A DNA stretch of 64,000 bases from a virus: positions 1 to 64,000 of IMG/VR virus record IMGVR_UViG_3300024301_000013. One strand, given 5' to 3'. Positions 1,249-64,000 of the stretch are shown one piece after another. The notes beneath the pieces are model-generated. The model was not told the DNA's origin. It ran no database searches and saw only the letters and a list, made by a program, of their open reading frames with translations. Each line of letters opens with the position of its first letter. Positions within the stretch are counted from its first letter, which is position 1. The position numbers and the translations under genes are program-made.

Positions 1249-3030
1249 ATGATTAATTACGGAGAAGAACTAGGATGGGAAGTCGGTGTTGACTTCCCAG
1301 AATGGGGTAATACAGAAGTCTATATAAAGACTATCTCAAAAGAATACCTTTTAAAAGGAGAAAAACCAAAAGATGCTTATTGGAGAGTTTCAACAACTGT
1401 TGCTAAACGTTTGAATAAACCAGAGTATGCAACTAAATTCTTTGATTACATTTGGAGAGGATGGTTGAATTTGGCAACCCCTGTTTTAGCAAATACAGGT
1501 ACGGATAGGGGGCTACCTATTAGTTGCTTTGGTATTGATGTTGGAGATAGCATTTATGATATTGGTGCTAAGAACCTAGAGTTAATGGTTCTAGCAAAGA
1601 ATGGTGGTGGTGTAGGTATCAATGTTAATATGATTAGACCAGCAGGTGCAAAGATTACAAATAATGGTACATCAGATGGTGTTGTTCCATTTTGTAAGAT
1701 TTATGATTCAACTATATTGGCTACTAACCAAGGATCAGTTAGAAGAGGTGCTGCATCAGTAAATATAAAAATTGATCACCCAGATTTTGAAGATTGGTTG
1801 GAAATTCGTGAGCCTAAAGGTGATGTTAATAGACAATCACTTAATTTACACCAATGTGTTGTAGTAAGTGATAAATTTATGAGAAAGTTAGAAGAAGGTG
1901 ATGTTGAAGCTAGAAGAAAGTGGGGTAAATTGTTGCAAAAAAGAAAAGCAACTGGAGAACCATATATTATGTTTAAAGGGAACGTCAATAAAGCTAACCC
2001 TGAAATGTATAAAAAGAATGGTTTGAAAGTTCACATGACAAATATTTGCTCTGAAATTGCTTTGCATACTGACGAGCAACACTCTTTTGTATGTTGTCTA
2101 AGCTCTTTGAATTTAGCAAAATATGATGAATGGAAAGACACTGATTTGATTTATACTGCTACTGTTTTTTTGGACGGCGTTTTGGAAGAATTTATTCAAA
2201 AAGCAAAAAATATGAAAGGGTTTGAAAATTCAGTTAGGTCAGCAGAGAAGGGAAGAGCTTTGGGGCTAGGGTGTTTAGGCTTCCACACGTATCTTCAACA
2301 AAAAGGTATCCCATTCGAAGGTCTAAGAGCACAATTTGAAACTCGTAAAATTTTCTCTCAAATAAAAATTGAGTCTGAAAAAGCAAGTAGAGATTTGGCT
2401 TTAGAATACGGAGAACCGCTTTGGTGTAAAGAAAGTGGCTTTAGGAATACACACCTTAGAGCTATTGCTCCAACGGTCTCTAACTCGAAATTAAGCGGTA
2501 ATGTGAGTGCTGGTATTGAACCTTGGGCTTCTAACTTATTTACAGAACAATCCTTGAAAGGTACCTTTATTAGAAAGAATAATGAACTAGAAAAAGTACT
2601 TGACGTAATAGGTAAAAATACAAAAGAAGTTTGGGACCAAATTCTTCAAGACGGTGGTTCAGTACAAGGACTAGACTTTTTAGATGAATGGTGTTATTAT
2701 AATGAAAAATTAACAAGAGTCTCTGAAGTTCCACCTGAAGACATTGATGTTAAAACTTACACTGTAAAAGATGTATTTAAGACTTTCAAGGAAATTAATC
2801 AGTTGGATTTGGTAAAACAAGCAGGTGTAAGACAACAATATATAGATCAGGCAGTATCTTTGAATTTAGCGTTTCCAGCACAAGCTGATCCAAAATTCAT
2901 CAATACAGTACATTTGGAGGCATGGAAACAAGGTGTTAAAACACTTTATTACATGAGAACCGAATCTGTTTTAAGAGGAGATATTGCAGCTAAAGCTACT
3001 GATTTATCTTGCTTGTCTTGTGACGGATAA
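1249..3030 (+). CDS. nrdA: Ribonucleoside-diphosphate reductase, alpha (catalytic) subunit
   Basis: The catalytic subunit reduces ribonucleotides with NrdB. Active-site features are in order: a redox Cys in PISCFG (about residue 92), the N-x-C-x-E triad in NICSEIAL (about 265-269), the second redox Cys in SFVCCLSS (about 282), the radical-transfer Tyr pair in TLYYMRT (about 565) and a C-terminal CLSC thioredoxin-accessible pair. At 593 residues it is shorter than the usual 700-800; the N-terminus starts almost directly in the catalytic region, so an ATP-cone allosteric domain seems to be missing. One copy of the GGACGGCG repeat lies at 2172. Confidence 0.95.
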   Translation: MINYGEELGWEVGVDFPEWGNTEVYIKTISKEYLLKGEKPKDAYWRVSTTVAKRLNKPEYATKFFDYIWRGWLNLATPVLANTGTDRGLPISCFGIDVGDSIYDIGAKNLELMVLAKNGGGVGINVNMIRPAGAKITNNGTSDGVVPFCKIYDSTILATNQGSVRRGAASVNIKIDHPDFEDWLEIREPKGDVNRQSLNLHQCVVVSDKFMRKLEEGDVEARRKWGKLLQKRKATGEPYIMFKGNVNKANPEMYKKNGLKVHMTNICSEIALHTDEQHSFVCCLSSLNLAKYDEWKDTDLIYTATVFLDGVLEEFIQKAKNMKGFENSVRSAEKGRALGLGCLGFHTYLQQKGIPFEGLRAQFETRKIFSQIKIESEKASRDLALEYGEPLWCKESGFRNTHLRAIAPTVSNSKLSGNVSAGIEPWASNLFTEQSLKGTFIRKNNELEKVLDVIGKNTKEVWDQILQDGGSVQGLDFLDEWCYYNEKLTRVSEVPPEDIDVKTYTVKDVFKTFKEINQLDLVKQAGVRQQYIDQAVSLNLAFPAQADPKFINTVHLEAWKQGVKTLYYMRTESVLRGDIAAKATDLSCLSCDG

Positions 3031-3091
3031 AAAAATAGTAATGCTCTTTTTTTGACTTAATATTTATATTTGTATAAAATGGTTTATCCAC

Positions 3092-3466
3092 ATGAGCAAC
3101 TATGTATTGTCAATTAAGACAAAAGAGGGCAGTTATTACGGTGGTTCGATAAAAGCAGCTAACGTCGATGATGCGGACGAAGCTGCTTTTTCTATTTACA
3201 CCAGTTTACAAAGGGAAGGCTTTAAAGTAATACAAGACATTGAAGCTATTGATTATTTTAATCTAAACGGTAGTTTGCCTATCCCAGACAACATTGATTT
3301 ATTTTATTATGTAACCTATCATAGGTTAAATGTAGATGAAAATATTGAACCTATATTGATAGATAATTTAATAAAATATTTTGAAAAAAAAGAGGAATAT
3401 GAGAAATGTTCTTTTTTATTAAAAATGAAAAACTCTAAAATTTTAGAACCAGAATTATATGACTAA
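3092..3466 (+). CDS. Small protein with UVR-like C-terminal helix, unknown function
   Basis: Not recognised as a family. The 124-residue protein starts with a beta-rich segment (YVLSIKTKEGSYYGGSI), and ends in an alpha-helical stretch, LIKYFEKKEEYEKCSFLLKMK, whose spacing (acidic, E-x-Y-E, then L-L-x-x-K) resembles the UVR motif of UvrB/UvrC and McsA. That likeness is by eye only. Its stop overlaps the start of the Nudix gene by 8 bases, so the two are probably translated together. Confidence 0.65.
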   Translation: MSNYVLSIKTKEGSYYGGSIKAANVDDADEAAFSIYTSLQREGFKVIQDIEAIDYFNLNGSLPIPDNIDLFYYVTYHRLNVDENIEPILIDNLIKYFEKKEEYEKCSFLLKMKNSKILEPELYD

Positions 3467-3920
3467 ATTAGTTAATATTGTAGAAAAAAAATATGCTGCT
3501 GGAGTTCTACCTGTGTGTTTAAATACGGGTAGAATTCTTCTTGGGAAAAGAGGTCCGAAGCTAGATAAAGAGCCTAATAAATGGTGTGATTTTGGTGGTA
3601 AGTCCAATAATTACGAAACACCTTATGAAACTGCTATTAGAGAATTTTATGAAGAGACAGGTAAAATTATGGCTGTAAAATTAATTCCTTCCTTCGTTAA
3701 TACGACTGGTGATATGGATTACTATAATTTTATAGGTATAGTTGAGGAAGAATTTAAACCATTGATTAACGTACCAACGGTAGACTATGAAATCGAAGTA
3801 GCTGATTTCAAATGGCTTACAGTTGATCAGTTCTTTAAATTTGAGAAATCAAAATTACATTGGGGAATGGACCTGCTTAGAAAGAAAGCTGAAAAGCAGA
3901 TCAAAGATTTATTTAGTTAA
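3459..3920 (+). CDS. Nudix hydrolase
   Basis: A 153-residue pyrophosphohydrolase of the Nudix superfamily. A full Nudix box is present: G-x5-E-x7-REFYEETG within FGGKSNNYETPYETAIREF and the residues after it (roughly 47-70), providing the Glu ligands for Mg2+. Such phage enzymes remove damaged or excess nucleotides, or decap RNA; the substrate cannot be told from sequence. It overlaps the upstream gene and converges with the next minus-strand gene by 8 bases. Confidence 0.88.
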   Translation: MTKLVNIVEKKYAAGVLPVCLNTGRILLGKRGPKLDKEPNKWCDFGGKSNNYETPYETAIREFYEETGKIMAVKLIPSFVNTTGDMDYYNFIGIVEEEFKPLINVPTVDYEIEVADFKWLTVDQFFKFEKSKLHWGMDLLRKKAEKQIKDLFS

Positions 3921-4584: not shown

Positions 4585-4962
4585 ATGAGTATAGCAAACT
4601 TCTTGGGAATAAGATTCCCTTTAAAAAATAGTACAAAAGGGTTTTATTTTGATTTGACAACTACTACAAAGGATCAAGTTAGATCAAACCTAATTCATTT
4701 ATTATTAACAAAAAAAGGTAGTAGATTATATAGACCTGACTTTGGATGTAATATTTTAGAATATTTGTTTGAGCCAGCAGATAATCAGACCTTTGAATTA
4801 ATAAAAACAGAAATAATAGATACAGTGCGAACTAATATGCAAGGTATTAATATAGATTCTGTTACCGTTGAATATGAAGATCACACTGTATCTTTGAATG
4901 TACTGTATAGTTTTAATAACGGTGCATTCTTAGTAAAAGATGTGTTAAACTTAAAGATTTAG
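4585..4962 (+). CDS. gp25: Baseplate wedge protein, GPW/gp25 family
   Basis: A 125-residue protein with the classic gp25/W layout: an N-terminal strand, then DQVRSNLIHLLLTKKGSRLYRPDFGCNILEYLF, then helices and a C-terminal beta-hairpin with an acidic D-H-T-V-S turn. The G-x-R-x-x-x-P-x-F-G-C core is the family signature. In contractile tails gp25 joins the wedge to the first sheath ring. It lies far from the main baseplate operon (31-46 kb). Its end overlaps the convergent endolysin gene by 4 bases. Confidence 0.9.
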   Translation: MSIANFLGIRFPLKNSTKGFYFDLTTTTKDQVRSNLIHLLLTKKGSRLYRPDFGCNILEYLFEPADNQTFELIKTEIIDTVRTNMQGINIDSVTVEYEDHTVSLNVLYSFNNGAFLVKDVLNLKI

Positions 4963-5702: not shown

Positions 5703-6454
5703 AGCTTGTATAATTTTTTTATTAAATCGCTTTGATAATATTCGTGAGTATTTAGATCCATTAAAGTCAATCTTCCTACACTTCCCGAACCTGTATCTAT
5801 GTTTATTATGTTAGATAATATCTCTGGTTTATGAGATGTTGTTGGTGTATGCCCTATAATTACTTTTTGAAAATCAAATGGCACATTATTAAAATTGAAT
5901 TTTAATTTTTTATTTTGGCTGTCTGCTACAAGTGCTTTTTGCCATAAAGATCTATTGATAGCAAAATTTATTTCTTTTTGGGATATTACTGATTTGCGTG
6001 TATCAAATCCAGCATGACATAAGAAGTATTCTTTATAATTAAACCAATATTTTACTTTTGTGAAGTATTGGTTTAATAATTCTAAGTGGTTATCTTTTTT
6101 TTGCAGGCTATCTATTGTAACTGCTCCACCAGCTTTTAGCCAAGATTTATTGATTCTATTATTAGTTATCCATTCTTTAACCCACAAATCATGATTACCC
6201 ATACAGGCGTGTAGATTTGTTATTTTTGATAATTCATTTAAGCATTCATAACTATCTTTTGCTGAACCTTCGAATAAGTCTCCTATAAAATATAAAGTAT
6301 CGTATTTAGGATTAAAATTAACTTTTTCAAACAGCTGCATAAGACCTTTATAGTTATTATGCAAATCCCCCAGAACATAAGCCTTTTGCAACAAGTTATT
6401 AAATTTTATATTTATAAATATATTTATCTCTATGAGTTTATCAGGAAAAAACAA
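5699..6454 (-). CDS. Calcineurin-like metallophosphoesterase
   Basis: The protein carries the ordered metal-binding motifs of PPP-type metallophosphatases: GDLHNN (D-x-H), FIGDLFEGS (GD), MGNHD (GNHD), a His in CHAGFD, and IGHTP. Phage relatives act as Ser/Thr phosphatases or dinucleoside polyphosphate hydrolases. The usual GDxVDRG is here GDLFEGS, so the Arg is missing and a nucleotide or RNA substrate is possible. The first ATG (6454) overlaps the divergent gene start at 6432; a TTG at 6394 or 6391, giving a protein that begins just before the first strand, may be the true start. Confidence 0.85.
   Translation of the reverse strand: MFFPDKLIEINIFINIKFNNLLQKAYVLGDLHNNYKGLMQLFEKVNFNPKYDTLYFIGDLFEGSAKDSYECLNELSKITNLHACMGNHDLWVKEWITNNRINKSWLKAGGAVTIDSLQKKDNHLELLNQYFTKVKYWFNYKEYFLCHAGFDTRKSVISQKEINFAINRSLWQKALVADSQNKKLKFNFNNVPFDFQKVIIGHTPTTSHKPEILSNIINIDTGSGSVGRLTLMDLNTHEYYQSDLIKKLYKL
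6409..6420. promoter_or_regulatory. Palindromic TATTTATAAATA between divergent genes
   Basis: A perfect 12-base palindrome that contains TATAAATA on both strands, lying between the divergent metallophosphatase and zincin genes. It could act as a pair of back-to-back T4-like late promoter cores. The word is common by chance in A/T-rich DNA, so this is a positional argument. Confidence 0.3.
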
Positions 6455-6815
6455 AAAACAATTAATTATTGATTTCTGTGAATTTTGTTATAATGAGTTA
6501 GGTTTAGAGAGTAAGCCTACTATTATAATAAAGAATAATAGAGATGGTTTAAAAACCTTTGCTAATTTCAGCTTTGATAAGTCTAGTAATTATAAAGCTA
6601 AGATTATGGTTTATGGTAAGAGTAGAATGTTAGGTGATATAATGAGGAGTTTAGCTCATGAGTTAGTTCACTATAAGCAATATATTGATGGTTTGTTGGA
6701 TGTGGACGGCGAAATACAAGATGCAGGAGGGGAAATAGAAGACGCTGCAAATGCCAAAGCAGGCGAACTTGTTAAGAAGTTCGGTTATAAAAATAAAAAT
6801 ATATATGAAGAATAG
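6432..6815 (+). CDS. Zincin-like (HExxH) metallopeptidase-fold protein
   Basis: The 127-residue protein contains a zinc-binding HELVH motif (about residues 76-80, SLAHELVHYKQY) with a downstream GEIEDAANAKAGE helix that can give the third ligand. This layout resembles small SprT- or ImmA-like metalloproteins of phages. Substrate unknown. A copy of the GGACGGCG repeat at 6704 encodes VDGE between the two motifs. The next gene overlaps its end by 11 bases. Confidence 0.7.
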   Translation: MSLSGKNKKQLIIDFCEFCYNELGLESKPTIIIKNNRDGLKTFANFSFDKSSNYKAKIMVYGKSRMLGDIMRSLAHELVHYKQYIDGLLDVDGEIQDAGGEIEDAANAKAGELVKKFGYKNKNIYEE

Positions 6816-7554: not shown

Positions 7555-10500
7555 TTACTTACGTTCTATTACAAAATCTTCAGGATCAATATTAACTGTA
7601 TCCCAATATTCCATTTCTTCAGGTGTAATAGTCATAACTTCTTCGTATGTAGATTGGTTATGTGCCTGTTCACTAAAAGGAACCCCATTTATCAATTCTA
7701 AGTCACTTTCTAATAAGAACGGTTTGTGATCATAAGAATTAATCATTAATCTGTCACGTATCTCTGGTTTAAAGCAAACGAAGAGTGGGTGGACGGCGGA
7801 ATTAAACTTGTTAATGTATAAATCCGTGTTATAATTAATCCCTTGGCTGTCTTGGTAATTATCGACTATAGAACAGTTAATAACATATTCAACTTTTATA
7901 AAGTCAACAAAAATCCCCTTTTTTAAATTTCTAACCTTTGTCTTAATATTCTTCCATTGTTCAATATCATCCAGAATGGCAAATATATCGCCGTCCAACA
8001 CCTTCTGATTAACTGTAAGCAAACTTTTACTATCAAGCCCTAAAAGAAAGTTTTTAATAAGGGTTTTATTCCTTGTTTTCATCACGTTGTTAATCTTAGA
8101 CATATCAACTTCACCGATTTCACAAGTAGCAAAAGTAGTTGTAGGACTTAAACTATCTTTATCGTCTTTAGACTTACCTGTATTAACATAATAAACAGTA
8201 TCACCTAATTCAATATCCAAGTTATTATTAATTAACAATTCCATGTGTACTTGTCTATTCAGTGGAGCACCGTTTTTATTTGTGCCTTGAATATGTTGCA
8301 AATATTCTGCTTTTGTCTTTTTAATCTTTGCCTTGGATGCTATCAATTTAAGATCAATTCTTTTCTCTTCAATCTTCCGAATATAATCCCAATAAGCGTT
8401 AATAAAGTCTAAAGGTTTATTTTGCATCAACTTCACTACTTCTTTTTCAACAAATTGAGTAATATATTCAGATTGTGTTTTCTTAATAATTGCTCCACCG
8501 ATGATTTCCACTTTATTAGTTACTTCACCTGTCTTTTTATCTTTAGCTTCTTTAAGATAAATGTAATTACCTTTAGAGAAATTAATTACAGATTCTACAA
8601 TCTCATCAATATCTAAACCCATAATACCTTTCATATACAAATCATTATATTCAGCTACGTGAGCTGCAATACCTGTATATTCTTTCCCTTTAGTTACCAA
8701 CCAGTTAATACCTTTTCCTATATATTGATATTCTAAGTCAGCTGTATTAATTGAAAAGAATACACCGTCAGTGTGGGCAATAGTAGCGATATAACCTTTC
8801 TTAGTAAACCATTTTATCAAATGCCTCAAGTGTTGTCTTCCAGTACAAGTAATACCTTGAGCCACAACCAAATCAGCAAAAGGAGTTACACCAGCAGCAC
8901 CCATCATACCATAGAAACTATTGATAAGGATTTTAATAGGTAACTGTCTTACTTCATACTTTTTACTTAAAGACATTTCACCTTTTTCTTTATGCTCATT
9001 CATCAACTTCTTATACTTAATCCTAGTGGACCAACCATAATACATAAACAGTTTATAAACGCCGTACAAATCAATTTTAGGGGAATCAACGTGTACATAG
9101 AACTCCGCTGGATACAGTGATGAGAAGTCAGCTTTAAAAGACTTACCGTGGTATCCAGCTGATAACATAGCTACAAGACCACCTGTAAATTCTCTTGGTT
9201 CATCATAATCAGGTACAGCTAAACCATATTGATATGAGTAAGCTGAAAGCAATAGTTTCCAAACAGATGCACCACCCATAGTTGCAGATCTTTGATAAGA
9301 AGTAGGCAACCATTTAGAAATCAAAAAAGTAGCTTGACTATAAAATTCATCTAATTTATTTGTTTCCCATAAATCATCAATCAAATACCTTTTAATGATA
9401 TCTTCACCCGTTGTAATAATGTATTCATTCAAATCCTTTTCAGGGTAGAATAAGTTAACATTATTAAGGTTAGACCTCAAATCTTTCAGCTTATTATAAA
9501 CTTTCTGATAAGTTACAATATCTTCTTTTTCTAACCATTTACCTACAAACTCATTTTTTCTAAAGCAAAGTTTATCGTAATCTTTAAACTTACTATAAAC
9601 ATTATTAAAGAAACCATCAATATCATCAGGTGTAAACTTCAAAGTATTTACACAAGATTCCATAAACATTTTATCATATTCTTCATCCCAAAGATATAAG
9701 GTATCTTCATTACCATATACTTGAGTATGTAAAGATTTTCTCTTTACCTTACTTTGCTCATAAGTATCATTTTCAAATACAATCTCTTTATGGTATTTGA
9801 ACCAGTCGCCATTATTTACATTCAAATAAAAATCAGCTTTTGAATTCTCAATGTCCCCGATTTTATTACCTTCTACATAAACACGATTAGGTTTAGCTAA
9901 TTTGGCGAACTTAATGTTATCTTTAAGTTTGAAGTTAGGGATTGCTTTATTAATAGCAGCAGCCCTTTTTACCGCAAACATAGTATCACACATATTAATA
10001 CCTAAGATACTTGTTTGAGTATAACTTTCACTGCTACCACCTACTTTAAGATTACCAGCCCTCCGATTAAACATTTGATTTTTCGAAATGTAAATTTCTT
10101 CGGGGTTTACGTAATATTCTTTCAATAAATCCCTGATACCATTGTAAGTTTGGTATTCATCTTGGAAATTCTTTAGAATTTCGTAACGTTTAACTATGAA
10201 AGGAAAATCAAAGCCTTCGCCGTTATATGTTAAGAACAGGTCAGGGTTTAATTCCATTGTCAACTTAAAGAATTCTTCAATTATCTGAAGCTCTTCTTCT
10301 TGGTTAGTGGCATTTAATACTTTTTCAAAACCGTTATTACAGTACATACCGATTTTAAAAATCATACCCATAGTGGGATGAAGAGCAGCATCTTTTCTAT
10401 GAGAAAATTCAGGTAAACCTTTTGTTTCTATATCCATTGTTAGACTTTTTAACTCTGGATATTCTTCGAATCCTTTGAATAATCTTTTTCCACTCTGAAT

Positions 10501-11658
10501 CATATATTGTTCAATTGTGGAAATTTTATAAAAGAGACGGTCTTCACCTACAAACAAATCAATACCATTTTCTATAAACAAGGCGTTAAGATTTGCAAAT
10601 CCTTTTTTAGAATCAAAGGAGAATCCATCTTGAATCATCATCATTAACTTTGTATCGTCAATTTTAAGTTTAAGATGTTTTGCAAATTTATCTGCATGTT
10701 GCACCAAGAAATCTAAATCATTGTTTCTAATTTTCTTTTCGTAGAAGTCAAATATTTTAGATGCCCTTACATTTTCATTAAAAATGGTAAAGGTTAAATG
10801 AATTAATTCTTCGTAATCTATCTCGCTGCTTATTTTAAGAATATCTTGGTCAAGATATTGGTTGTCTTCATTATTAGCATCAATGAAAGAAAAGAGAAAT
10901 GGTTTAGCTGGAAAACCAAAGAAAAAGAGTAATTTTTGGAAATTAGTTGAAGTTTTCCAAAACTCTTTTAGTTTTTCAGAATCTAAAAATACACCTGACC
11001 TTTTCCATATATCTAAACCACCTTCACGGAAAAAATCAATAAGGTTATTGAAGCTACCGTTGATTTTTTTTAATTCACCTCTTTTATTATAACAGAATAG
11101 GGGGTTATCGTAATTAGTTTCTTTTTCAGGTGCATTAATATGCACAAGATATTTAAACCCGTTTTCCATCCGATCGTATTTATCGGACTCGTTGATATGG
11201 GTTATCTGTTCTGTTATTTCAATATTGTATTGCTTCATTTTATTGAAGCAAAGCCTTCTTCTATCTTTAACATCAGATAGAAAGCGTCTTACAATATATT
11301 CGTTTTCATCTTGAGATTTGCTTACTATTTCTAATTGATCTTTAATAAGTTCTTGTGACTTATTTTCATAAAAGATAGAATTAGTTTCTTCATTGTAATC
11401 GGTGTGGTGGACGGCGAAATATTCCCAAAGAAAATCTCTATCAAAATCAAAACCCTTAAACCACATAAAAGGTCTAAAAGTATCTTTCTTGATCGTAACA
11501 TCTTCATCATTTTGTTTACGGACGAATATTTTTACTTCATTCGAAAAATTATTAGAATCAATGTAACGTATGCCTTCTTCAGGGTCAAACCCGTGTAGTA
11601 ACGATTCAATATCTTCGATTTTTAATCTTTTTAAATCTCCTTTCATAACATAATACAA
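7555..11658 (-). CDS. DNA polymerase, family B, with 3'-5' exonuclease
   Basis: The phage replicase, 1367 residues, is clearly larger than T4 gp43 (about 900). Exonuclease motifs are TMDIETKGL (about 406) and LTYNGEGFDFPF. Polymerase motif A is KADFSSLYPAEFY (about 844), motif B KILINSFYGMMG (about 907) and motif C IAHTDGVFFS (about 961). Motif C usually reads DTDS; here the first Asp is His and the Ser is Gly, while the second, catalytic Asp is kept. The extra length lies in the N-terminal 400 residues and after the palm. Three GGACGGCG repeats fall inside (7791, 7989, 11409). A host-type promoter sits just upstream. Confidence 0.95.
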   Translation of the reverse strand: MYYVMKGDLKRLKIEDIESLLHGFDPEEGIRYIDSNNFSNEVKIFVRKQNDEDVTIKKDTFRPFMWFKGFDFDRDFLWEYFAVHHTDYNEETNSIFYENKSQELIKDQLEIVSKSQDENEYIVRRFLSDVKDRRRLCFNKMKQYNIEITEQITHINESDKYDRMENGFKYLVHINAPEKETNYDNPLFCYNKRGELKKINGSFNNLIDFFREGGLDIWKRSGVFLDSEKLKEFWKTSTNFQKLLFFFGFPAKPFLFSFIDANNEDNQYLDQDILKISSEIDYEELIHLTFTIFNENVRASKIFDFYEKKIRNNDLDFLVQHADKFAKHLKLKIDDTKLMMMIQDGFSFDSKKGFANLNALFIENGIDLFVGEDRLFYKISTIEQYMIQSGKRLFKGFEEYPELKSLTMDIETKGLPEFSHRKDAALHPTMGMIFKIGMYCNNGFEKVLNATNQEEELQIIEEFFKLTMELNPDLFLTYNGEGFDFPFIVKRYEILKNFQDEYQTYNGIRDLLKEYYVNPEEIYISKNQMFNRRAGNLKVGGSSESYTQTSILGINMCDTMFAVKRAAAINKAIPNFKLKDNIKFAKLAKPNRVYVEGNKIGDIENSKADFYLNVNNGDWFKYHKEIVFENDTYEQSKVKRKSLHTQVYGNEDTLYLWDEEYDKMFMESCVNTLKFTPDDIDGFFNNVYSKFKDYDKLCFRKNEFVGKWLEKEDIVTYQKVYNKLKDLRSNLNNVNLFYPEKDLNEYIITTGEDIIKRYLIDDLWETNKLDEFYSQATFLISKWLPTSYQRSATMGGASVWKLLLSAYSYQYGLAVPDYDEPREFTGGLVAMLSAGYHGKSFKADFSSLYPAEFYVHVDSPKIDLYGVYKLFMYYGWSTRIKYKKLMNEHKEKGEMSLSKKYEVRQLPIKILINSFYGMMGAAGVTPFADLVVAQGITCTGRQHLRHLIKWFTKKGYIATIAHTDGVFFSINTADLEYQYIGKGINWLVTKGKEYTGIAAHVAEYNDLYMKGIMGLDIDEIVESVINFSKGNYIYLKEAKDKKTGEVTNKVEIIGGAIIKKTQSEYITQFVEKEVVKLMQNKPLDFINAYWDYIRKIEEKRIDLKLIASKAKIKKTKAEYLQHIQGTNKNGAPLNRQVHMELLINNNLDIELGDTVYYVNTGKSKDDKDSLSPTTTFATCEIGEVDMSKINNVMKTRNKTLIKNFLLGLDSKSLLTVNQKVLDGDIFAILDDIEQWKNIKTKVRNLKKGIFVDFIKVEYVINCSIVDNYQDSQGINYNTDLYINKFNSAVHPLFVCFKPEIRDRLMINSYDHKPFLLESDLELINGVPFSEQAHNQSTYEEVMTITPEEMEYWDTVNIDPEDFVIERK

Positions 11659-12066: not shown

Positions 12067-13713
12067 TTAAGAGTTGTATATATCGTAATTACATTTTATT
12101 ACTTGATAATCCAAAGGGACATCATAAAGACAGAAAGATTTTATCTTCCCAATAAAAGTACCAGCAAAATTTTCTTCTAAAACACCACAAATATTGTTAT
12201 CTGTTACAAATTTAAAACAGTTAGTTTTATGTAAGGAGTTTTGAGAATAATCAGGTAAATTAGGGTTACAACAACCCCCTGTTATATCTTCATCAATATC
12301 AACAGAATAATATACTTTCTCAAAATCATCTAATACAAATCTATTTGTAAATTCAACGTAATGTGAAGTTTCCTTTGTTTGAATTGAAATAAATCTATCA
12401 TCTAAGAGTGAGCTATAAAAAGATATTATTTCATCTTTTTGTGTGAAATCAAAATCAGTAACAGTAAAATAATCAACCCCATTAATTCTAACCCCTTTAA
12501 AGAATTGATTTTTCTTTAGATAAAATTGATAATCACAAACTTCATATTCAGTTGGTACATCAGTTGGCATTTCTAATAAACCTTGAGTTCCGCCACCAAT
12601 ACTGATATTGTAAGGCACACCTAATTGTTTAGAAGGTAAATCATCAAAAGGTTCAGGTACAATGTTAGGGAAATTATATTCCCTCAATTTCAAAAAGCCA
12701 TCAACGTATATGCTTAATGTACCAAAAGATTGTTCTTTGGGTTTACATATATGTGGGTTATCGCTTTGAAATTTAATTGTAACTAAATGATAATTTTCGT
12801 CTGTAAATATATTTTCAGTACTATATTTTTCAAATATTAATAAGTCTTCTTCAAATTTACCATCAACACAAGTACCTGAAGTTGCAAGGTATCTATATCC
12901 TATTTTACCTTCATCTGTTATTCTAAAGGCTAAGGCGTTGTATTTTAAGTTATCACAACAATCAGGAAGTGTAAAAGTTACTCCAGTTGCATTCAAATAG
13001 AAATCACTTAGACTAGGGCAATTAAAAAATAAAAAAGGTGAAGTATCGCTTGGTGGCTTTATATGTGAAGTTTCTTCTATAATAGAGTTTAAGAATGTTA
13101 CACCGCTAGATACTTCGTAGGATAAGATATGTTCTTTAAGGGAGCAGAACTTATTTTCAGCTCTTGTTCCATAGTAATAGAATATACCTTCGTTATTAGG
13201 ATAAGTTTCATTTAGAGTGGGTAATTCAGAGTCACAAGTACATCCGCTTTTAGCCAAATAGAATTCAGCAGTCCAACCGTCCACAAAATGCTCTGGGAGC
13301 GTTTGGTACTCATAACCTTCTAACTTATAGAAGCCCTGATAGAAACCCCCGCACAACTGAACTGTGGAGCCACTAAGCACATCGTAGCAAAAGTTTTCGC
13401 CGTCCACCTGCTTAACAAAAAATCTCTTTTCGCCGTCCAACCCCCAATCAGAATCAATACTATCAGAAAATCTATTATCATAACCTGTAATACCAAAATT
13501 AGGTATGGTAACACCACTAGCAGATATAGCACCAATCCATTCATTATCGACATATACAGTCCCCAATGAATTGAAGTTCATACAAATAATTGGTTCTACT
13601 ACATCATTACAATTACAAATAGCATCATATTCAGATACCTGTATGTCGTAATAATCTTTATTAGATAACTTCAAATCTAATAATGTCGCGTATTTTCTAT
13701 TGATATATGCCAA
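12067..13713 (-). CDS. Virion protein with concanavalin/LamG-like lectin domain (tail fibre or decoration)
   Basis: A Cys- and aromatic-rich protein with several beta-sandwich-like segments. One region (GTLSIYVDGFLKLREYNFPNI...YNISIGGGTQGLLE and the closing GKIKSFCLYDVPLD) has the typical pattern of laminin-G/concanavalin-like domains common in Bacteroidota phage tails, suggesting glycan binding. The longest frame opens at 13827, but that would overlap the divergent gene. A TTG at 13713 (548 aa, starting AYINRKYATLLDLK) keeps the two genes apart and is preferred. Two GGACGGCG repeats lie only 33 bases apart (13398, 13431), encoding VDGE and LDGE. Confidence 0.65.
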   Translation of the reverse strand: MAYINRKYATLLDLKLSNKDYYDIQVSEYDAICNCNDVVEPIICMNFNSLGTVYVDNEWIGAISASGVTIPNFGITGYDNRFSDSIDSDWGLDGEKRFFVKQVDGENFCYDVLSGSTVQLCGGFYQGFYKLEGYEYQTLPEHFVDGWTAEFYLAKSGCTCDSELPTLNETYPNNEGIFYYYGTRAENKFCSLKEHILSYEVSSGVTFLNSIIEETSHIKPPSDTSPFLFFNCPSLSDFYLNATGVTFTLPDCCDNLKYNALAFRITDEGKIGYRYLATSGTCVDGKFEEDLLIFEKYSTENIFTDENYHLVTIKFQSDNPHICKPKEQSFGTLSIYVDGFLKLREYNFPNIVPEPFDDLPSKQLGVPYNISIGGGTQGLLEMPTDVPTEYEVCDYQFYLKKNQFFKGVRINGVDYFTVTDFDFTQKDEIISFYSSLLDDRFISIQTKETSHYVEFTNRFVLDDFEKVYYSVDIDEDITGGCCNPNLPDYSQNSLHKTNCFKFVTDNNICGVLEENFAGTFIGKIKSFCLYDVPLDYQVIKCNYDIYNS

Positions 13714-28980: not shown

Positions 28981-29454
28981 ATGAAAAGAATAATATTACC
29001 AGAAGCCTTTGCCACTTTCCACTTTGATGAAAGATATTTGGAAAGAGTTGTAGGTAAGAGATTACCTGAATCTTTATCTCAAGCCATTGTTAACAGGGTT
29101 GATATGTTAAAAGCACTTATTTTACCTAAAGGCGACTTTATAATTAGTATATTTTATTTCAGAAAAGATCAAAAACATTTAACTGTTATTGTAAGAAATT
29201 ATGTTATGATAACAACATATTTCAAGGAAAAAGTTAAATCTGATGGATGTTTTAGTGTTTCTGATTTTATGAAATTTAAAAAAACATTACAATATCTTAG
29301 ATTTTCACCTGAAGTTCCTAAAAAAGGTTCTTTTTATTATAAGTACGATGATTATAATGCACCCTTTTGTATTTTAGTTAAAGACAGAAAGCTAGAAAAA
29401 GCTGTTAGTATAGAGGATGTTGATAATTACCCTGAATACAAACCTTTAAATTAA
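28981..29454 (+). CDS. Unknown protein of the baseplate-region operon
   Basis: The 157-residue protein has FHFDERYLERVVGKRLPESL at the start and a beta-rich middle (DFIISIFYFRKDQKHLTVIVRNYVMITTYF). The pattern suggests a small alpha/beta fold. It sits immediately before the gp5-like gene. No family recognised. Confidence 0.55.
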   Translation: MKRIILPEAFATFHFDERYLERVVGKRLPESLSQAIVNRVDMLKALILPKGDFIISIFYFRKDQKHLTVIVRNYVMITTYFKEKVKSDGCFSVSDFMKFKKTLQYLRFSPEVPKKGSFYYKYDDYNAPFCILVKDRKLEKAVSIEDVDNYPEYKPLN

Positions 29455-29462
29455 AAAAAAAT

Positions 29463-31157: not shown

Positions 31158-31181
31158 ATATTAAAGATATAATTTAGAGTG

Positions 31182-53596: not shown

Positions 53597-54676
53597 ATGC
53601 AAAATTTTTTATCTTTTTTCAAAAGCATAAAAAGTGAATTTGAAGAGAATCATAAAGTTGCGGACTTTATATTCACAGTCATCATCTTATTTGTTAGCTT
53701 AACGTCCTTTTTTCACGTAATGGAATATTGGACGTTAACCAACAAAGCCCCTTTTTATGTTATCACAGCTATTGCAACTGAACTTTTCATTTTGGGTTCT
53801 ATGTTGGCAATTAGATACACTAGTGTAGCTTGGATCCCCTTCATATTTGGCATATTCGTTCAAGGTATAGGTAACGTATTTTACAGTTATATTAATATTC
53901 AGGTAGATTCAGTTTACTTCTTAGCTTTTCAGGAATTGTTTAAGCCAATGTTTGAAATAGCTTATGGGGATGAACTTGAATTAGCGAATTACAAAAGGGT
54001 ACTTGCATATTCAAACGGTTTATTTTATTTGAGTCCGATTGTGTTTCTTTGGGCAAAACTTTCTTTGAAAAGTCAAACTAAGAAATTAAATTTAAAAACT
54101 CTGAATGATTTACCTATTGAAAAGAGCGGAGGTGATACACCCCCTGAACCAGATGATTTAGGGGATATAAAGCCACTTAAATCTAAGGAGCAAGAAGAAC
54201 CTCTAGCAGAAGAAGTTTCGCCGTCCACCCAACCATCACAACAAATAGATGTAAAAGAAGTACAGGTAGAAACTAATGAAATAGTAGAAGAAGTTCTTAA
54301 GGAAGAAGAACAAGCTATTAAGGAAGTAGAACAAGTTGTTGAGAAAGAAGCAGAAGAAGTTATTAAGGAAGAAAAAGAAATTATTAAGGAAGAAGAAGAG
54401 CAAGAAGAAAAAATACAAAACACTCCAACAAAAAGAGTTTTTAGTTTTAACCCTGCTACTCCTCCATTAATTGAAAAAAAAAAGTTAGAACAAAAACCAG
54501 ACAAAGATGATGGTATTCAAATTTGGACTAACATTTTACACGAAGTAGCTAGAGATAATGATTATGAGCAAGATAATGAAAAGGTCTTAAAAGTTAGAGA
54601 AGTAAAGCGCCCAGTTGGTAATGTGAAAATTACAGACAAATTTACTATTGCAGGTTTAAAACCTGAAAACAAATAA
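53597..54676 (+). CDS. Polytopic membrane protein with long acidic tail
   Basis: The 359-residue protein has about four hydrophobic segments in its first 165 residues (FIFTVIILFVSLTSFF; FYVITAIATELFILGSMLAI; WIPFIFGIFVQGIGNVFY; GLFYLSPIVFLWAKLSL). A 190-residue soluble tail follows, with a Glu/Lys/Val-rich repetitive stretch (about 205-275) that is likely a single charged helix. A repeat copy at 54219 encodes SPST at the start of the acidic stretch. Could be a membrane platform or superinfection-exclusion protein; no family recognised. Confidence 0.65.
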   Translation: MQNFLSFFKSIKSEFEENHKVADFIFTVIILFVSLTSFFHVMEYWTLTNKAPFYVITAIATELFILGSMLAIRYTSVAWIPFIFGIFVQGIGNVFYSYINIQVDSVYFLAFQELFKPMFEIAYGDELELANYKRVLAYSNGLFYLSPIVFLWAKLSLKSQTKKLNLKTLNDLPIEKSGGDTPPEPDDLGDIKPLKSKEQEEPLAEEVSPSTQPSQQIDVKEVQVETNEIVEEVLKEEEQAIKEVEQVVEKEAEEVIKEEKEIIKEEEEQEEKIQNTPTKRVFSFNPATPPLIEKKKLEQKPDKDDGIQIWTNILHEVARDNDYEQDNEKVLKVREVKRPVGNVKITDKFTIAGLKPENK

Positions 54677-55157: not shown

Positions 55158-56579
55158 ATGAATAAGAAACAATTAAATAGAGTTACGTTTATTGGAGAGA
55201 GTAAGATGGTGGTGGACGGCGAACATACAGTATCAGTTGAAAGAAATGCAGCTGGTAAGACATACGTCTATGAAAAGAAAGATGGATCAAAGAGAAAATT
55301 CGATGATGAAAATCTCCTCTTTGATTACCTAGATGAAATGACAAGCACAGGAAGTGTTGGTGGAGGTATGGAATTACCATTAGCTACCCCAAAAAACAAA
55401 GGTGCTTTTATGCGTAGAACAATCAGCCCTTATACTGATGTTGTTGATGTAAACGACTTGGAACTTATGAGTGAAGAGTTAAAAAAGCTGACTACAGAGC
55501 TTTTGAAAGAAGAAGCTAAAGCACACCCTAACTATAACCTTATCGAACGTTATAGAAAGACAAACGGTGAAGGTAGTAAGAAGAACGTCAAAGAAGTTGA
55601 AGATAAAATTAATATTGTTTATCAAGATATACTTAAAGCAGCAGAACCTAATTACTACAATGATAATAACGATTATAATGGTGATGGTATACCGAATCAA
55701 TTTAAAGAAAATAACACTAATTTAGATTTGATGTATGACGGTATTACTGATGAGTTTAAAGAAAGAATTACAAAAGAACTTTCAAAAGATCCAACTGGTG
55801 TTAAGTTAATGCAAGCCGCATTGGCGAAAGCAAAAGTTAAAGAACAGAATCCAACAAATACCAATTTATTCCAATTAGGTTCAGATATTGAAACTCTAAA
55901 AGTAGGTATCAAGGATGCAGATGTAATTAAAAACCCTAAAGGACACGCTAGACATGGTGTAGCAGCTCTTGGATTTAAAATAAATGAAGGTAAAATGGTA
56001 AGATTTAACTTTAATTCAGAAAAATACGATTTTGAACATAATAAAAAACAATTGGAAGAGTCTATTCCAAACAAAGTAAAAAACGAAGGTACTCGTTTTG
56101 AAATGAAAGATAGCAAAGGTAATTTGTATCTGCTTGAATGGAACAACGGTGAACCAACAATCCTTGAACATAGAAACTTGATTGCTGAAGAAAAAGCCAA
56201 TCAAAAATTGAATATGTTATTTGAATATAAGAATTGGGATAAACCTGTAAAATCTAAAAAAATAGAATTTGATTTCTTCACGAAAAAATCTTTAAATGAA
56301 GAAGTTGAAGAGGATGATATGGTTGAATACTTGGTTCCAGAATGGTCTTTGTCTGCTCTAGTAAATGGTGATTTCTCTGGATTGTCTGATGAAGATGAAG
56401 CTAAAATTGAAAAGTTTATAAAAGAAGTAACTAGCCATTATGGTAATGCACATTTCATGGTAGGTGATTTGGAAGGCGAAGATAACTTAGGTTTCAAATA
56501 TAGAAACGATATTGATAATCTAGGGAGCAATGTTTATAGATTGTATATCAAACCTCTGAAATCGAAAATGGAACAATAA
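55158..56579 (+). CDS. Unknown large protein, possible virion/core protein
   Basis: The ATG at 55158, one base after the previous gene's stop, gives 473 residues and is preferred over 55098, which would overlap. The N-terminus is a small beta domain (VTFIGESKMVVDGEHTVSVERNAAGKTYVYEKKDGS). The middle is helical and Asn/Lys-rich with a DNNDYNGDGIPNQF calcium-like loop. A second beta segment (RFEMKDSKGNLYLLEWNNGEP) and an acidic C-terminal domain follow. The repeat copy at 55214 encodes VDGE. No family recognised. Confidence 0.6.
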   Translation: MNKKQLNRVTFIGESKMVVDGEHTVSVERNAAGKTYVYEKKDGSKRKFDDENLLFDYLDEMTSTGSVGGGMELPLATPKNKGAFMRRTISPYTDVVDVNDLELMSEELKKLTTELLKEEAKAHPNYNLIERYRKTNGEGSKKNVKEVEDKINIVYQDILKAAEPNYYNDNNDYNGDGIPNQFKENNTNLDLMYDGITDEFKERITKELSKDPTGVKLMQAALAKAKVKEQNPTNTNLFQLGSDIETLKVGIKDADVIKNPKGHARHGVAALGFKINEGKMVRFNFNSEKYDFEHNKKQLEESIPNKVKNEGTRFEMKDSKGNLYLLEWNNGEPTILEHRNLIAEEKANQKLNMLFEYKNWDKPVKSKKIEFDFFTKKSLNEEVEEDDMVEYLVPEWSLSALVNGDFSGLSDEDEAKIEKFIKEVTSHYGNAHFMVGDLEGEDNLGFKYRNDIDNLGSNVYRLYIKPLKSKMEQ

Positions 56580-59748: not shown

Positions 59749-59852
59749 GAATGTAAGCGGGGGAAATGAAACAGTTACAATTTATTTAAACTTTAATTTA
59801 CATATTTAAACATTTTTATTAATTTTTTTATAAGTTGTGTATATTTATATAT

Positions 59853-60452
59853 ATGGTAACAATAAAAGAAGCTAGTAAATTACTCGGTGTAACTCAAAAA
59901 ACATTAAGACTTTGGGAAAAAGAAGGTAAAATCACCTCAAAAAGAACAGAAGGTGGGCACAGAAGATATGAAATATCTGATTTATTAAAAAACAATAAAG
60001 GTAAAGAATTAACTATTGTATATGCTAGAGTGAGTTCAATAGATCAAAAAGACGATCTAAAAAGACAAGAACTCGTGCTAGAAAGTTATTGTGCAAGTAA
60101 AGGCTATCAATATGAATTAATATCTGATTTAGGATCAGGTTTAAATTATAAAAAAAAGGGACTATTAAGATTAATAAAATTAATTTGTAGTCATGAAGTC
60201 GATAGACTAGTTCTAACCCACAAAGACAGATTATTAAGATTTGGTAGCGAGCTTATTTTTTCACTTTGTGAGCATTTTGGAGTTGAAGTTGTAATCATAA
60301 ATAGAAGTGAAGATTCTTCATTTGAAGAAGATTTAACAAAAGATATTATGGATATAATAACTGTATTTTCAGCTAGAATGTATGGTAGTAGAAGCCATAA
60401 AAATAAACAGATTGTAGAGCAATTAAAAAACATAGCTAATAATGCAATATAA
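59853..60452 (+). CDS. tnpA: IS607 serine recombinase (transposase TnpA)
   Basis: The 199-residue protein has an N-terminal MerR-type helix-turn-helix (IKEASKLLGVTQKTLRLWEKEGK, then TEGGHRRYEI, about 3-41). A small serine resolvase catalytic domain follows, with the nucleophile in YARVSSIDQKDDL (S61 or S62) and the arginine cluster in THKDRLLRFG. The ATG at 59853 matches the usual IS607 N-terminus (MVTIKEASK) and is chosen over 59835. It overlaps tnpB by 11 bases. Confidence 0.93.
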   Translation: MVTIKEASKLLGVTQKTLRLWEKEGKITSKRTEGGHRRYEISDLLKNNKGKELTIVYARVSSIDQKDDLKRQELVLESYCASKGYQYELISDLGSGLNYKKKGLLRLIKLICSHEVDRLVLTHKDRLLRFGSELIFSLCEHFGVEVVIINRSEDSSFEEDLTKDIMDIITVFSARMYGSRSHKNKQIVEQLKNIANNAI

Positions 60453-61665
60453 ATCATATAAAATAAGATTGGAACCAAATAATAAACAAGAAACCTTGTT
60501 TAATAAACATGCGGGCGTTGCCCGCCATGCTTATAATGTTGGTTTGGCTTATTCGAATGATTATTATGAATTGAATAAAAAAACACCAAGTGCAATAGAT
60601 CTTCATAAATGGTTGGTCGCAACCATAAAAAAAGATAACCCTTGGTATTACGAGGTTTCAAAGTGTGCTCCGCAAAAGGCTTTAATAGACTTGGAGACCG
60701 CTTTTAAAAACTTCTATCGCTTGCAAAAGAAAAACAGTTACAAATTAAAAGATAAAAAAGGTCGCTTGCAAGGATTACCGAAATTCAAAAAGAAAGGGAT
60801 TAGAGATAAATTTTATCTTGAAGGAAGTGTAAGAATCCAAAACAACAAAATAAAATTACCAAGAATTGGTTGGGTTAAATTATCTGAAAACACACCTGCA
60901 ACAGCAATAAAAAATTGCACCGTTAGTAGAGTAGCAAACGAATGGTTCGTATCATTCAAAACAGAATACACCACAAAAACAACCCCTAAAAAATTCAAAT
61001 CGGTTGGTGTGGATTTGGGGGTTAAAACACTTGCAACATTAAGCAATGGTGAAACATTTCAAAACTTAACCCCATACAAAAAAGCAAAGAGTAAATTAAG
61101 AAAGCAACAGAAAGAAGTTAGTAGAAGATTTGTAAGAGGTGCCAAAAACCAAAGCAACAATTACAAAAAGTCTGTACTAAAACTTGCAAAAATACATGCC
61201 AAGGTAGCAAATGTAAGGAAAGACTCCTTGCATAAACTAACCTCATATTTGTCAAAGAACTTTGAAACAGTTGTCATCGAAGATTTGAAACCAAAAAATA
61301 TGGCTAAAAATCATAATTTGGCTTCAGCAATTCTCGATGGGGGATTTTTTGAGTTCAAGAGACAACTGTTATACAAAAAACAGTGGTATGGTGGTTCGAT
61401 TATAATTGCAAACACCTTTTACCCAAGTTCAAAACTTTGTTCTTGTTGCGGAAACAAAAAAGAAAAGTTAAAACTTTCTGAAAGAGAATACACTTGTTAC
61501 AATTGCGCTGTCACTTTAGACAGAGACTTAAACGCAAGTGTTAACCTAAATAATTTGGCGGTGAGCTTCACCGCAACAGCCTTTGGAGATGAGAGTACAA
61601 ACCCTTTAGGGTTTCAGCTTGTCGATGAATTAGGAATCAAACATCAAATGTTTACATTTGTATAA
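60442..61665 (+). CDS. tnpB: TnpB RNA-guided nuclease
   Basis: The 407-residue TnpB carries the split RuvC triad: D190 in GVDLGVKTLATL, E280 in VIEDLKPKNM and D362 in LDRDLNASVNL. A zinc finger is present in between (CSCCG at about 333 and CYNC at about 352). An N-terminal wedge-like start (YKSYKIRLEPNNKQETLFNKHAG) is also present. All catalytic residues are intact. TnpB proteins are guided by omega RNA from the element's right end to cut empty target sites and preserve the transposon. Confidence 0.95.
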   Translation: MQYKSYKIRLEPNNKQETLFNKHAGVARHAYNVGLAYSNDYYELNKKTPSAIDLHKWLVATIKKDNPWYYEVSKCAPQKALIDLETAFKNFYRLQKKNSYKLKDKKGRLQGLPKFKKKGIRDKFYLEGSVRIQNNKIKLPRIGWVKLSENTPATAIKNCTVSRVANEWFVSFKTEYTTKTTPKKFKSVGVDLGVKTLATLSNGETFQNLTPYKKAKSKLRKQQKEVSRRFVRGAKNQSNNYKKSVLKLAKIHAKVANVRKDSLHKLTSYLSKNFETVVIEDLKPKNMAKNHNLASAILDGGFFEFKRQLLYKKQWYGGSIIIANTFYPSSKLCSCCGNKKEKLKLSEREYTCYNCAVTLDRDLNASVNLNNLAVSFTATAFGDESTNPLGFQLVDELGIKHQMFTFV

Positions 61666-61708: not shown

Positions 61709-61972
61709 ATGAAACAAACAAAAATTAAGTCACAAATTCTACGAATTTTCACTCCCAACGCTTTAATATATTATTATGAAAACTGTATTAATGATCAGGT
61801 TTGTGCGTTGTTAGGAGCTATTTACATAACATTTAAAGAAAACAAAAAAAATGGTAAAAAAACTAGCAGGCTTATTAGCCACGATTTTATTAGTAGGTTG
61901 CTTTTCGCCGTCCACCCCAAAAACAGAAAATCCCTCCTTAGTAAACTTCAAAGGTCAGGTTTACTCAAGTAG
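61709..61972 (+). CDS. Doubtful small protein overlapping the lipoprotein gene
   Basis: An open frame of 87 codons begins just after the IS right flank. Its last 122 bases overlap the lipoprotein gene in another frame. The first half (KQTKIKSQILRIFTPNALIYYYENCINDQVCALLGAIYITFKENKK) looks protein-like; the overlapping half is Lys/Arg/Leu-rich and less convincing. It may be a real short gene with a long overlap, or chance. Confidence 0.3.
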   Translation: MKQTKIKSQILRIFTPNALIYYYENCINDQVCALLGAIYITFKENKKNGKKTSRLISHDFISRLLFAVHPKNRKSLLSKLQRSGLLK

Positions 61973-62300: not shown

Positions 62301-62309
62301 CAAAAAAGT

Positions 62310-62886: not shown

Positions 62887-62890
62887 TATT

Positions 62891-63232
62891 ATGAAAGTAT
62901 TTAATTTATTGTTAGCCATTGGCTTTGCTTATATGTTTTTATCTGAATGGAATGATTTGGATATGCGTTTCAAAAAAGAGCAAGAATTAAAATATGAAAT
63001 AGTATCAGTCTCTAAAGCTGAAGGTGATTTAGCTAAATTGACTATAAAAGATTTAAAAACGAAAAAAGAATATGACTTGAGAGTGGATTATTCTTATAAG
63101 GATATTAAGAAAATGAATCTTTCAAATAAGAATATTAAAGTGGTAAATTCCTTATACGCTAACAACTACGGTAAGAAAGAATTAAAGTTTCAGTACGTTG
63201 TAATTAAAGATAAAAAAGTAGATGTTTTATAA
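62891..63232 (+). CDS. Small protein with signal anchor, unknown
   Basis: The 113-residue protein starts KVFNLLLAIGFAYMFLSEW, a signal or anchor helix, followed by a beta-rich domain (YEIVSVSKAEGDLAKLTIKDLKTKKEYDLRVDYSY). It starts 4 bases after the previous membrane gene and likely shares its promoter. No family recognised. Confidence 0.55.
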   Translation: MKVFNLLLAIGFAYMFLSEWNDLDMRFKKEQELKYEIVSVSKAEGDLAKLTIKDLKTKKEYDLRVDYSYKDIKKMNLSNKNIKVVNSLYANNYGKKELKFQYVVIKDKKVDVL

Positions 63233-63265
63233 TTTGGAATATTTATCAAAAAAGCTATTTTTTTA

Positions 63266-64000
63266 ATGAAATTACCAGATAACTACGAGGATTTAATAAA
63301 ATCAATGCCTTTAGACCTGAAGGAATTGTTATTTAAGCAATGGGGTGCAAAACAGAATCCAAAATACCATCCAGAGGGTAACACCTTGAAACATATAATC
63401 TATGTTTTAAGAAGGGCTTACAGGGATTACCCTGATGAGCCCAATGTTATTTTAGCTGCATTATTCCACGACTTAGGTAAAATGGATACCTACGAAATTA
63501 GTCCTAAAACAGGTCAACCAACGGCTTACAAACATGAAAAGGTTTCAGCTGAAATAGTTGATAAATTTGCTTCTTGGATTAATTCTTTTGAGGATACCGA
63601 TGCGGATGAAGTAAACTATTTGGTTCGTAACCACATGTTAATGAAGCCTGAAACTTGGGGCCAAATGAAGGACAAGAAAAAGAAAGTGGTAACAGATGAT
63701 CCAGCGTTTTCTAAGTTAGAAAAATTTGCTAAGATTGATAAGGGAGGTGTTGATGAGAGCATGCACTTTTCGCCGTCCAAAGAAATAACCCTCACAGAAC
63801 GCTCTGTAATAGAGAATTTAATTGAGTATTGTAATATGATGCAAGATGAGGTAGAAGTCCTCACAGAAGCAGAATATAAAGGAAAGAAGGTATCTCTAAA
63901 CAAACCTATGAGAGGAGATGTAAAGAAATACAAGGTTTATGTGAAGAACCCTAAAACAGGAAAGATTATCAAGGTTAATTTCGGGGATAAAAATATGGAA
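63266..64000 (+). CDS. HD-domain phosphohydrolase-like protein (partial, cut by window end)
   Basis: The ATG at 63266 opens a frame that continues past base 64000 (245 codons seen). The N-terminal part is an HD domain: H in YHPEGNTLKHI, HD in AALFHDLGKMDT, then H-E-K-V-S-A and a later RNHM. HD proteins of phages hydrolyse nucleotides or cyclic nucleotides. After about residue 210 comes KYKVYVKNPKTGKIIKVNFG, the start of a short basic domain that I recall as a common tail module in phage proteins. A repeat copy at 63771 encodes SPSK between the two parts. Confidence 0.75.
   Translation, partial: MKLPDNYEDLIKSMPLDLKELLFKQWGAKQNPKYHPEGNTLKHIIYVLRRAYRDYPDEPNVILAALFHDLGKMDTYEISPKTGQPTAYKHEKVSAEIVDKFASWINSFEDTDADEVNYLVRNHMLMKPETWGQMKDKKKKVVTDDPAFSKLEKFAKIDKGGVDESMHFSPSKEITLTERSVIENLIEYCNMMQDEVEVLTEAEYKGKKVSLNKPMRGDVKKYKVYVKNPKTGKIIKVNFGDKNME

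Follow-up and report, generated by a model that had tools for sequence, protein, structure and literature searches.

The DNA studied here is a window of 64,000 nucleotides, positions 1 to 64,000 of the 71,757-bp IMG/VR phage record IMGVR_UViG_3300024301_000013 (G000), with a G+C content of 30% by base counts. Its main feature is a short G+C-rich DNA word, GGACGGCG, which is repeated on both strands throughout the window. Judged from genes annotated by eye and from family searches, the phage is a T4-like myovirus. Its 136-kb relative G001 encodes, according to the family search, the Gp23 capsid protein, the Gp20 portal protein and an S77 prohead protease, along with RecA-like (PF00154), DnaB-like, SNF2-type (labelled UvsW-like by eye) and 5'-3' exonuclease proteins, and the relative G433 encodes a tail-sheath-type protein. 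The preliminary description of this DNA, made from the letters alone, had assigned the phage to Bacteroidota hosts. None of the 69 called genes is preceded by a Shine-Dalgarno-like motif (simple pattern); this would be expected in Bacteroidota and makes such a host plausible. Matches to the baseplate protein include Flavobacterium phages (26.5% identity) among the nearest isolates, but a Microcystis phage is equally near (26.7%), and an uncultured phage matched at 28.2%.

The window contains 31 exact copies of GGACGGCG, 14 on the plus strand and 17 on the minus strand, whereas a second-order Markov model based on the trinucleotide content predicts 0.022. No other 8-mer of the window is so strongly enriched, and the next one that is not a shifted form of GGACGGCG has 5 copies against 0.195 expected; no comparable unrelated G+C-rich word is present. 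The copy number and coordinates are those given in the preliminary description, and its further claims of an excess over expectation, of a preceding T and of two following A/T bases, the latter two each in 30 of 31 copies, were reproduced on recount. The constraint to G or T two bases before the word is also present, although in 30 of 31 copies rather than 29. The whole record contains 35 copies, 4 of them outside the window, with the T at the 5' edge in 34 of 35. The longer form TGGACGGCGWW occurs 32 times in the record and its reversed control not at all, and TGGACGGCGWA occurs 27 times. Across five contigs, single-mismatch forms were rare relative to 205 full words; the ninth base was freer (TGGACGGCA, 14 copies; TGGACGGCC, 11 copies), and the next form was TCGACGGCG with 5 copies.

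The distribution of the word was followed in relatives found by the baseplate wedge protein, of which the best 80 of 108 were kept. The two nearest loci (90% and 75% identity) have 11 and 12 copies, and the other 78 (49% identity or less) have none, except for one locus with a single copy. In scans of 20 whole records, 67 copies were found in G001, 29 in the 39.7-kb contig G002 and 1 in G007; the remaining 17 records, including the 161-kb G005, have none. Scans of viral contigs for close pairs of words, followed by counting, added the word-rich contigs G021, G023, G024, G025 and G433, which have genes in common with the clade; G433 carries 49 copies of the nine-base form TGGACGGCG. These scans recover only some word-rich contigs; one of them covered 80 of 89 stretches, and the other two covered every stretch found. 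The word is thus specific to this clade, where its density is about 1 per 1-3 kb and nearly all copies lie inside genes. It persists outside the window, both in the remainder of the record and in the closest relatives, which the preliminary description had proposed to check.

Ten words were also found in an 8.3-kb contig, G022, which by gene comparison has no gene in common with the clade. Two scans of viral contigs for its relatives returned only G022 itself. Distant homologs of two of its proteins occur in 481 and 113 phage records with many hosts, and a placement was not obtained. Its words form four convergent pairs (63-104, 537-573, 4716-4748 and 5950-5995) that are intergenic, located after genes and capable of forming hairpins, and a further copy, at 1008, sits in the loop of what by eye resembles a terminator hairpin with T's after it.

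Conservation, encoded peptides and the one-sided G/T tract

Codon alignments of reciprocal best genes were used to follow individual copies. Between G000 and G001 (76.4% nucleotide identity), 26 of 32 words are kept, and 26 of 30 in the reverse direction, whereas the kept fraction is 0.179 over all 8-mers and 0.274 over those with six or more G+C. At 61.7% identity (G000 to G433), 8 of 15 words are kept, compared with 0.044 for all 8-mers and 0.134 for G+C-rich ones. The counts were 15 of 22 from G001 to G433 and 15 of 45 from G433 to G001, and with the word-less G005 as partner 0 of 11 and 0 of 18. Because retention exceeds the 8-mer background but falls with distance, the alignments indicate that word copies are maintained, yet gained and lost with increasing distance.

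Of the 35 copies in G000, 19 are read in the sense direction, 18 of them in one frame that gives [LV]DG[EVD]-type peptides; 15 are antisense, giving FAV-, NAV-, SAV-, SPS- or TPS-type peptides, and 1 is intergenic. The sites in the window, taken from the word search and the flanks of each copy, are given here as 21-nt intervals consisting of TGGACGGCG and 12 nt of the tract on its 5' side. Sense sites on the plus strand encode LDGE (17794-17814, 18324-18344, 29533-29553, 32168-32188 and 49861-49881), LDGV (2159-2179, 22341-22361 and 44820-44840), VDGE (6691-6711 and 55201-55221) or VDGV (33393-33413, at the very start of a called open reading frame [ORF], and 40040-40060, which is convergent with the site at 40178). 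On the minus strand, sense sites encode LDGD (7989-8009), VDGE (13398-13418) and LDGE (16679-16699 and 13431-13451, the latter 33 bp from the 13398 site and on the same strand). The antisense sites on the plus strand correspond to SAVH (7778-7798, where the word is followed by G) and FAVH (11396-11416). Those on the minus strand correspond to SPST (24672-24692, 45894-45914, 54219-54239, 61906-61926 and 40178-40198, the last convergent with the word at 40053), SPSI (51757-51777), SPSK (63771-63791), TPST (39157-39177), FAVH (25463-25483 and 36699-36719), FAVQ (30107-30127) and NAVQ (32775-32795). A minus-strand antisense site with the variant GGGACGGCG and its 5' flank (44483-44503) corresponds to FAVP; G001 lacks the word there and has the same amino acids.

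The peptide [LV]DG[EV] occurs 7.3 times per 10,000 residues in G000, 6.2 in G001, 8.9 in G433, 11.8 in G021 and 9.7 in G002, compared with 1.0 in G005. It is 6-12 times more common in the four larger word-bearing contigs than in G005, the one word-less relative compared. The dipeptide DG alone is not more common in word-bearing contigs (35-45 per 10,000 residues) than in G005 (48). In the small contigs G022-G025, [LV]DG[EV] ranges from 0 to 4.7 per 10,000 residues. The word is contained in 79 of the 84 [LV]DG[EV] peptides of five word-bearing contigs, and the DNA signal has most likely changed the amino acids of phage proteins. Codon usage was ruled out as the cause of the word, since sense and antisense copies are read in different frames (LDGE, FAVH, SPST) and the peptides are rarer in the word-less G005.

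The flanks of the word are strongly asymmetric. Third codon positions on the word strand were scored around the 205 words of G000, G001, G433, G021 and G025, which are partly orthologous. On the 5' side, the G/T share in successive 6-nt bins starting at -6 to -1 is 0.94, 0.87, 0.79, 0.68, 0.62, 0.62 and 0.57 (-42 to -37), and the level beyond -36 is 0.57-0.58. On the 3' side, an A-rich triplet at +9 to +11 is followed directly by background. Sense and antisense copies have the same 5' G/T bias. To measure how far the tract depends on the word, four-fold sites within the 12 nt that precede the word were scored at homologous places of a partner genome. Where the word is shared, the partner has G or T at 26 of 29 sites (G000 to G001), 16 of 16 (G001 to G433), 13 of 15 (G433 to G001), 12 of 12 (G000 to G433) and 8 of 9 (G021 to G001). 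Where it is not shared, the counts for the same pairs are 3 of 10, 2 of 2, 14 of 28, 3 of 4 and 14 of 22, the second and fourth being too small to weigh. Because the G/T bias of the partner is mostly limited to places with a shared word, the tract is part of the site and not of the gene, and is mostly found only with the word. In G022 the tract is shorter: the 12 nt 5' of the ten words contain 1% C and 76% G+T, and positions -24 to -13 are unbiased. The complete site can be written 5'-(G/T-rich, about 12-24 nt)-G-(G/T)-TGGACGGCG-AAA-3'; each copy is read on a single strand, and copies are distributed over both strands of the whole genome.

These results indicate a signal that is real, strongly conserved and apparently new. 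The preliminary description had proposed a genome-wide, orientation-balanced DNA signal, and this is well supported by the enrichment, the relatives and the conservation; new relative to that description are the one-sided 5' G/T tract, the pattern of reading frames and the finding that somewhat more distant relatives lack the word. A dispersed long repeat was ruled out, since the flanks are alike in composition and not in sequence. A replication-strand signal of the KOPS type was not supported, the order of orientations being random. GGACGGCG differs from its own reverse complement and is thus not a palindrome of the HIP1 kind. Literature searches returned no report of the word in phages or Bacteroidota; for the word strings, the titles of a few among many papers were checked.

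A candidate reader of the word

The word-bearing and word-less contigs differ in their primases. G005 encodes a 320-aa DnaG-type primase (PF08275), and this family was detected in 6 of the 14 word-less contigs but in none of the 6 word-bearing ones; the G005 primase as a single-sequence query also gave no match in the word-bearing contigs. Conversely, PF08800 (BT4734-like) was found in 3 of 6 word-bearing contigs (G001, G021 and G433) and in 0 of 14 word-less ones. These three contigs encode a protein of 1367-1402 aa with a BT4734-like N-terminal domain, scoring 43 bits in the 1367-aa protein (cut-off, 22.4) and 36.4 and 36.5 bits in its relatives, and a DEAD-type helicase part, whose Pfam score is weak and below the cut-off and whose Walker-type and DEQH motifs were recognized by eye. 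In the partial records G000, G002 and G025, neither primase type was seen. Close relatives of the protein in the viral set amount to 4 loci, namely, G001, G021, G433 and one contig with a protein 100% identical to that of G001. A comparison with annotated phages gave one weak match (28%; E value, 7e-4), one with plasmids gave none, and one with PDB sequences gave nothing useful. The BT4734-like proteins form one family within the archaeo-eukaryotic primases (AEP) (PMC8065100, PMC5862659). For another AEP family, AEP-SF2 helicase fusions that have T4-like phage relatives are on record (PMC5862659).

Of the explanations considered, the likeliest is that the word is the recognition site of the phage's own BT4734-like AEP primase, with the tract as template for a primer made only of A and C; we give it about an even chance. 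The primase is predicted to bind the word in the single-stranded template and to read the template from 3' to 5'. The primer would start with an A opposite the near-invariant T at the 5' edge of the word, and copying of the G/T tract would yield a primer of A and C only, which could serve lagging-strand or origin priming in both fork directions. The site is strand polar and has its possible primer-template tract on the 5' side, as expected for a primase, and its first template base is a T, which like C would direct a purine start, the start base being assumed. Priming would also favor phage DNA, since no dense array of the word was seen in the sampled bacteria. We infer binding, primer synthesis and use at the fork from what was observed: the enrichment, clade restriction and conservation of the word; the polarity, extent and word dependence of the tract; the altered peptide frequencies; and the occurrence of the word together with another type of primase. 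Of the roles listed in the preliminary description, nuclease steering, packaging or partition, DNA modification and template switching are possible, but the polarity of the tract and the replacement of the primase point to one that was not listed, replication priming. Pairs of words less than 150 bp apart are convergent in 11 cases and divergent in none, which suggests divergent primers. This was given no weight, because opposing G/T tracts would clash at short distance and some of the pairs are orthologous.

Known primases resemble this arrangement in part. The T7 gene 4 primase recognizes 5'-(G/T)2GTC-3' and makes A/C-only primers starting with A; flanks rich in G/T reportedly strengthen its binding and lengthen its primers (PMC12839067). 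As proposed here, G/T lies 5' of a fixed motif on one strand in T7, and the Okazaki fragments of 1-6 kb (PMC12839067) compare with a same-strand word spacing of 2.0-4.7 kb in G000, G001, G433 and G021 (7.1 and 4.5 kb in the small G025). The T7 enzyme is, however, of the DnaG type, and its fixed part has 3 nt and not 9; that trinucleotide occurs in 504 copies in the T7 lagging-strand region, so that special enrichment is not needed (PMC12839067). The PrimPol of phage NrS-1 is a phage enzyme of the AEP superfamily with an 8-nt recognition sequence, 5'-TTTGGTTA-3', with synthesis beginning at the base immediately 5' of this site (PMC8718748). It belongs to another AEP family and also uses 5'-GTG-3', more efficiently, and its authors suggest that the long site is a specific start mark, unlike the genome-wide array found here (PMC8718748). 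The GP55 protein of phage 1706 recognizes a loosely defined 5-nt site, and its primers are 2-22 nt long (PMC12205980), which would agree with the distance over which the G/T tract decays.

Weighing the explanations

Several observations count against a role in priming. The nine fixed bases exceed the 3-8 of the primase sites in the literature consulted, and for T7 a report cited in PMC12839067 finds binding unaffected by what lies 5' of the pentanucleotide. The spacing of the word is near random, with a coefficient of variation of 0.74-1.10 in the T4-like contigs, and shows no even layout. The primase gene is known from G001, G021 and G433 and is absent from the (partial) 72-kb record of the window itself. 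The primases of G021 and G433 are nearly identical, leaving only two distinct lineages, and the link between word and primase rests on one clade and hence on one evolutionary event. Neither primase family was found in 8 of the 14 word-less contigs, which are fragments. G022, with its ten words and no clade gene, gave no PF08800 match. A UvrD-like helicase (G001, 109129-110607) and several proteins of unknown function are equally clade specific in comparison with G005. When the AEP motifs I (hhhDhD/E), II (sxH) and III (hD/E) were sought by eye, motif I (IYMDVD) and a candidate motif III were present, but motif II was not evident, and an AlphaFold model of residues 1-635 was unusable (pLDDT, 43).

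A host signal was sought with TGGACGGCGWA. None of 395 Bacteroidota genomes was enriched, the highest count being 25 copies in a 3.0-Mb genome; in a second, partly overlapping draw of 395 genomes (the order of a Sinomicrobium genome), none was enriched and the highest count seen was 9. The 6-member family of the richest genome reached 29 copies in 2.8 Mb, far below the density in the phages. In a pair scan of genome contigs, the word was counted locally in 80 of at least 119 stretches, and the six genomes followed further had background counts or local repeat clusters. The suggestion in the preliminary description of a Chi, uptake or HIP1-like signal shared host-wide therefore found no support in these draws, and a host Chi is not supported among the sampled Bacteroidota. 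An unsampled host that carries the word is possible.

Chi is frequent in the genome of its host. A Chi-like recombination signal, read by a helicase-nuclease or by the phage recombination machinery and with the G/T tract as the 3'-ended strand for RecA/UvsX, is the main rival to priming, although we consider it unlikely. Its polarity would fit, the tract lying in the strand that is kept 5' of the signal. Like Escherichia coli Chi (GCTGGTGG), the word is G-rich, asymmetric and non-palindromic with a TG-rich context, and RecA filaments are most stable on TGG repeats (PMC3763553). The TG-rich context of Chi, however, spans thousands of bases, and titles in the reference list of the same paper argue that codon usage explains it (PMC3763553), whereas the G/T bias reported here ends within about 36 nt. 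Besides the RecA-like protein, the clade encodes candidates for the Rad50/Mre11-like proteins gp46/gp47 (annotated by eye), but the word-less G005 also has matches to both, so that these genes do not track the word. No enriched host was found in the two 395-genome draws and the one family.

Binding by another clade-specific phage protein, for compaction, partition, packaging or discrimination between host and self, is improbable to the same degree. The word is dense, conserved, clade restricted and present on both strands, and several clade-specific proteins have no family match; a duplex binder would nevertheless explain poorly why about 24 nt on one side only are biased in composition while having no fixed letters. 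DNA uptake sequences, about 9-12 bp long in Neisseria and Pasteurellaceae and a feature of naturally competent bacterial chromosomes, are likewise dense and found on both strands, and sit at terminators as convergent pairs. They bear on a further and still less likely explanation, in which the word would be a signal of an unsampled host (of the Chi or uptake type) that the phages mimic. The convergent pairs near gene ends in G022, which has Bacteroidota-type promoters (by-eye reading and pattern counts) and no clade genes, are of this kind, and mimicry would gain weight if G022 were a different element rather than another part of such a phage. The words of the T4-like clade, unlike uptake sequences, lie nearly all inside genes, the word is missing from the relatives that come next to the clade (at most 49% identity), and neither draw of Bacteroidota genomes showed enrichment. 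A mutational footprint, that is, strand-specific deamination (A to G and C to T) beside a protein-bound word, is very improbable. The third-position purine share is 0.43-0.48 in most bins from -60 to -7, and A and C both fall toward the word, as such a process would predict. Two-fold codons, however, force transitions anyway, the conserved 9-mer and the altered peptides would not be explained, and the tract is mostly absent where the word has been lost.

Other features of the phages and implications

In the window, a serine-recombinase-like ORF followed by a TnpB-like ORF (59835-61665) was read by us as an IS607-type element. The TnpB has relatives in G005 and G001, and its homologs in 22 of the 395 Bacteroidota genomes (best, 41%) were uninformative as a host tracer. 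A RecB/Cas4-like nuclease (by eye; 47499-48809), whose G001 ortholog has no Pfam match, lies directly before the Mre11/Rad50-like gp47/gp46 pair. In G001, an nrdA-like frame (74639-78026) is split by a 344-aa ORF (75817-76851), which may be an insertion of the intein or intron type. The ribonucleotide reductase pair of G433 (29331-32752) differs from the nrdA/nrdB of G000 and G001; it is 57-71% like that of G005 and 25-28% like that of G001, and the region looks exchanged. The word-less G005 has other enriched words, CGCCAACGCC (16 copies) and CTAGAACGCC (10 copies), against 0.01-0.05 expected, and a DnaB-like helicase with intein and homing-endonuclease domains (42248-44692).

Even if another protein reads the word, the bipartite site, that is, the word with its one-sided silent G/T tract, is a precise and testable handle, and the approach of following silent-site polarity around an enriched word is transferable to other phages. 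Primases in the literature consulted use short, frequent sites or one single long site. It is possible, though rather doubtful, that in this lineage an AEP primase dependent on a nine-base word and a G/T template tract took the place of a DnaG-type primase, and that the word was then written into both strands of the genome about once per 1-2 kb, altering the proteins in the process. Priming would then be confined for the most part to phage DNA, since no dense array of the word occurs in cellular DNA. If true, a long priming site would be under selection throughout the genome, at a strength sufficient to change the proteome. It would predict primer starts along an uncultured phage, show the coevolution of a replication enzyme with a whole genome and provide a rule for priming self and not non-self DNA.

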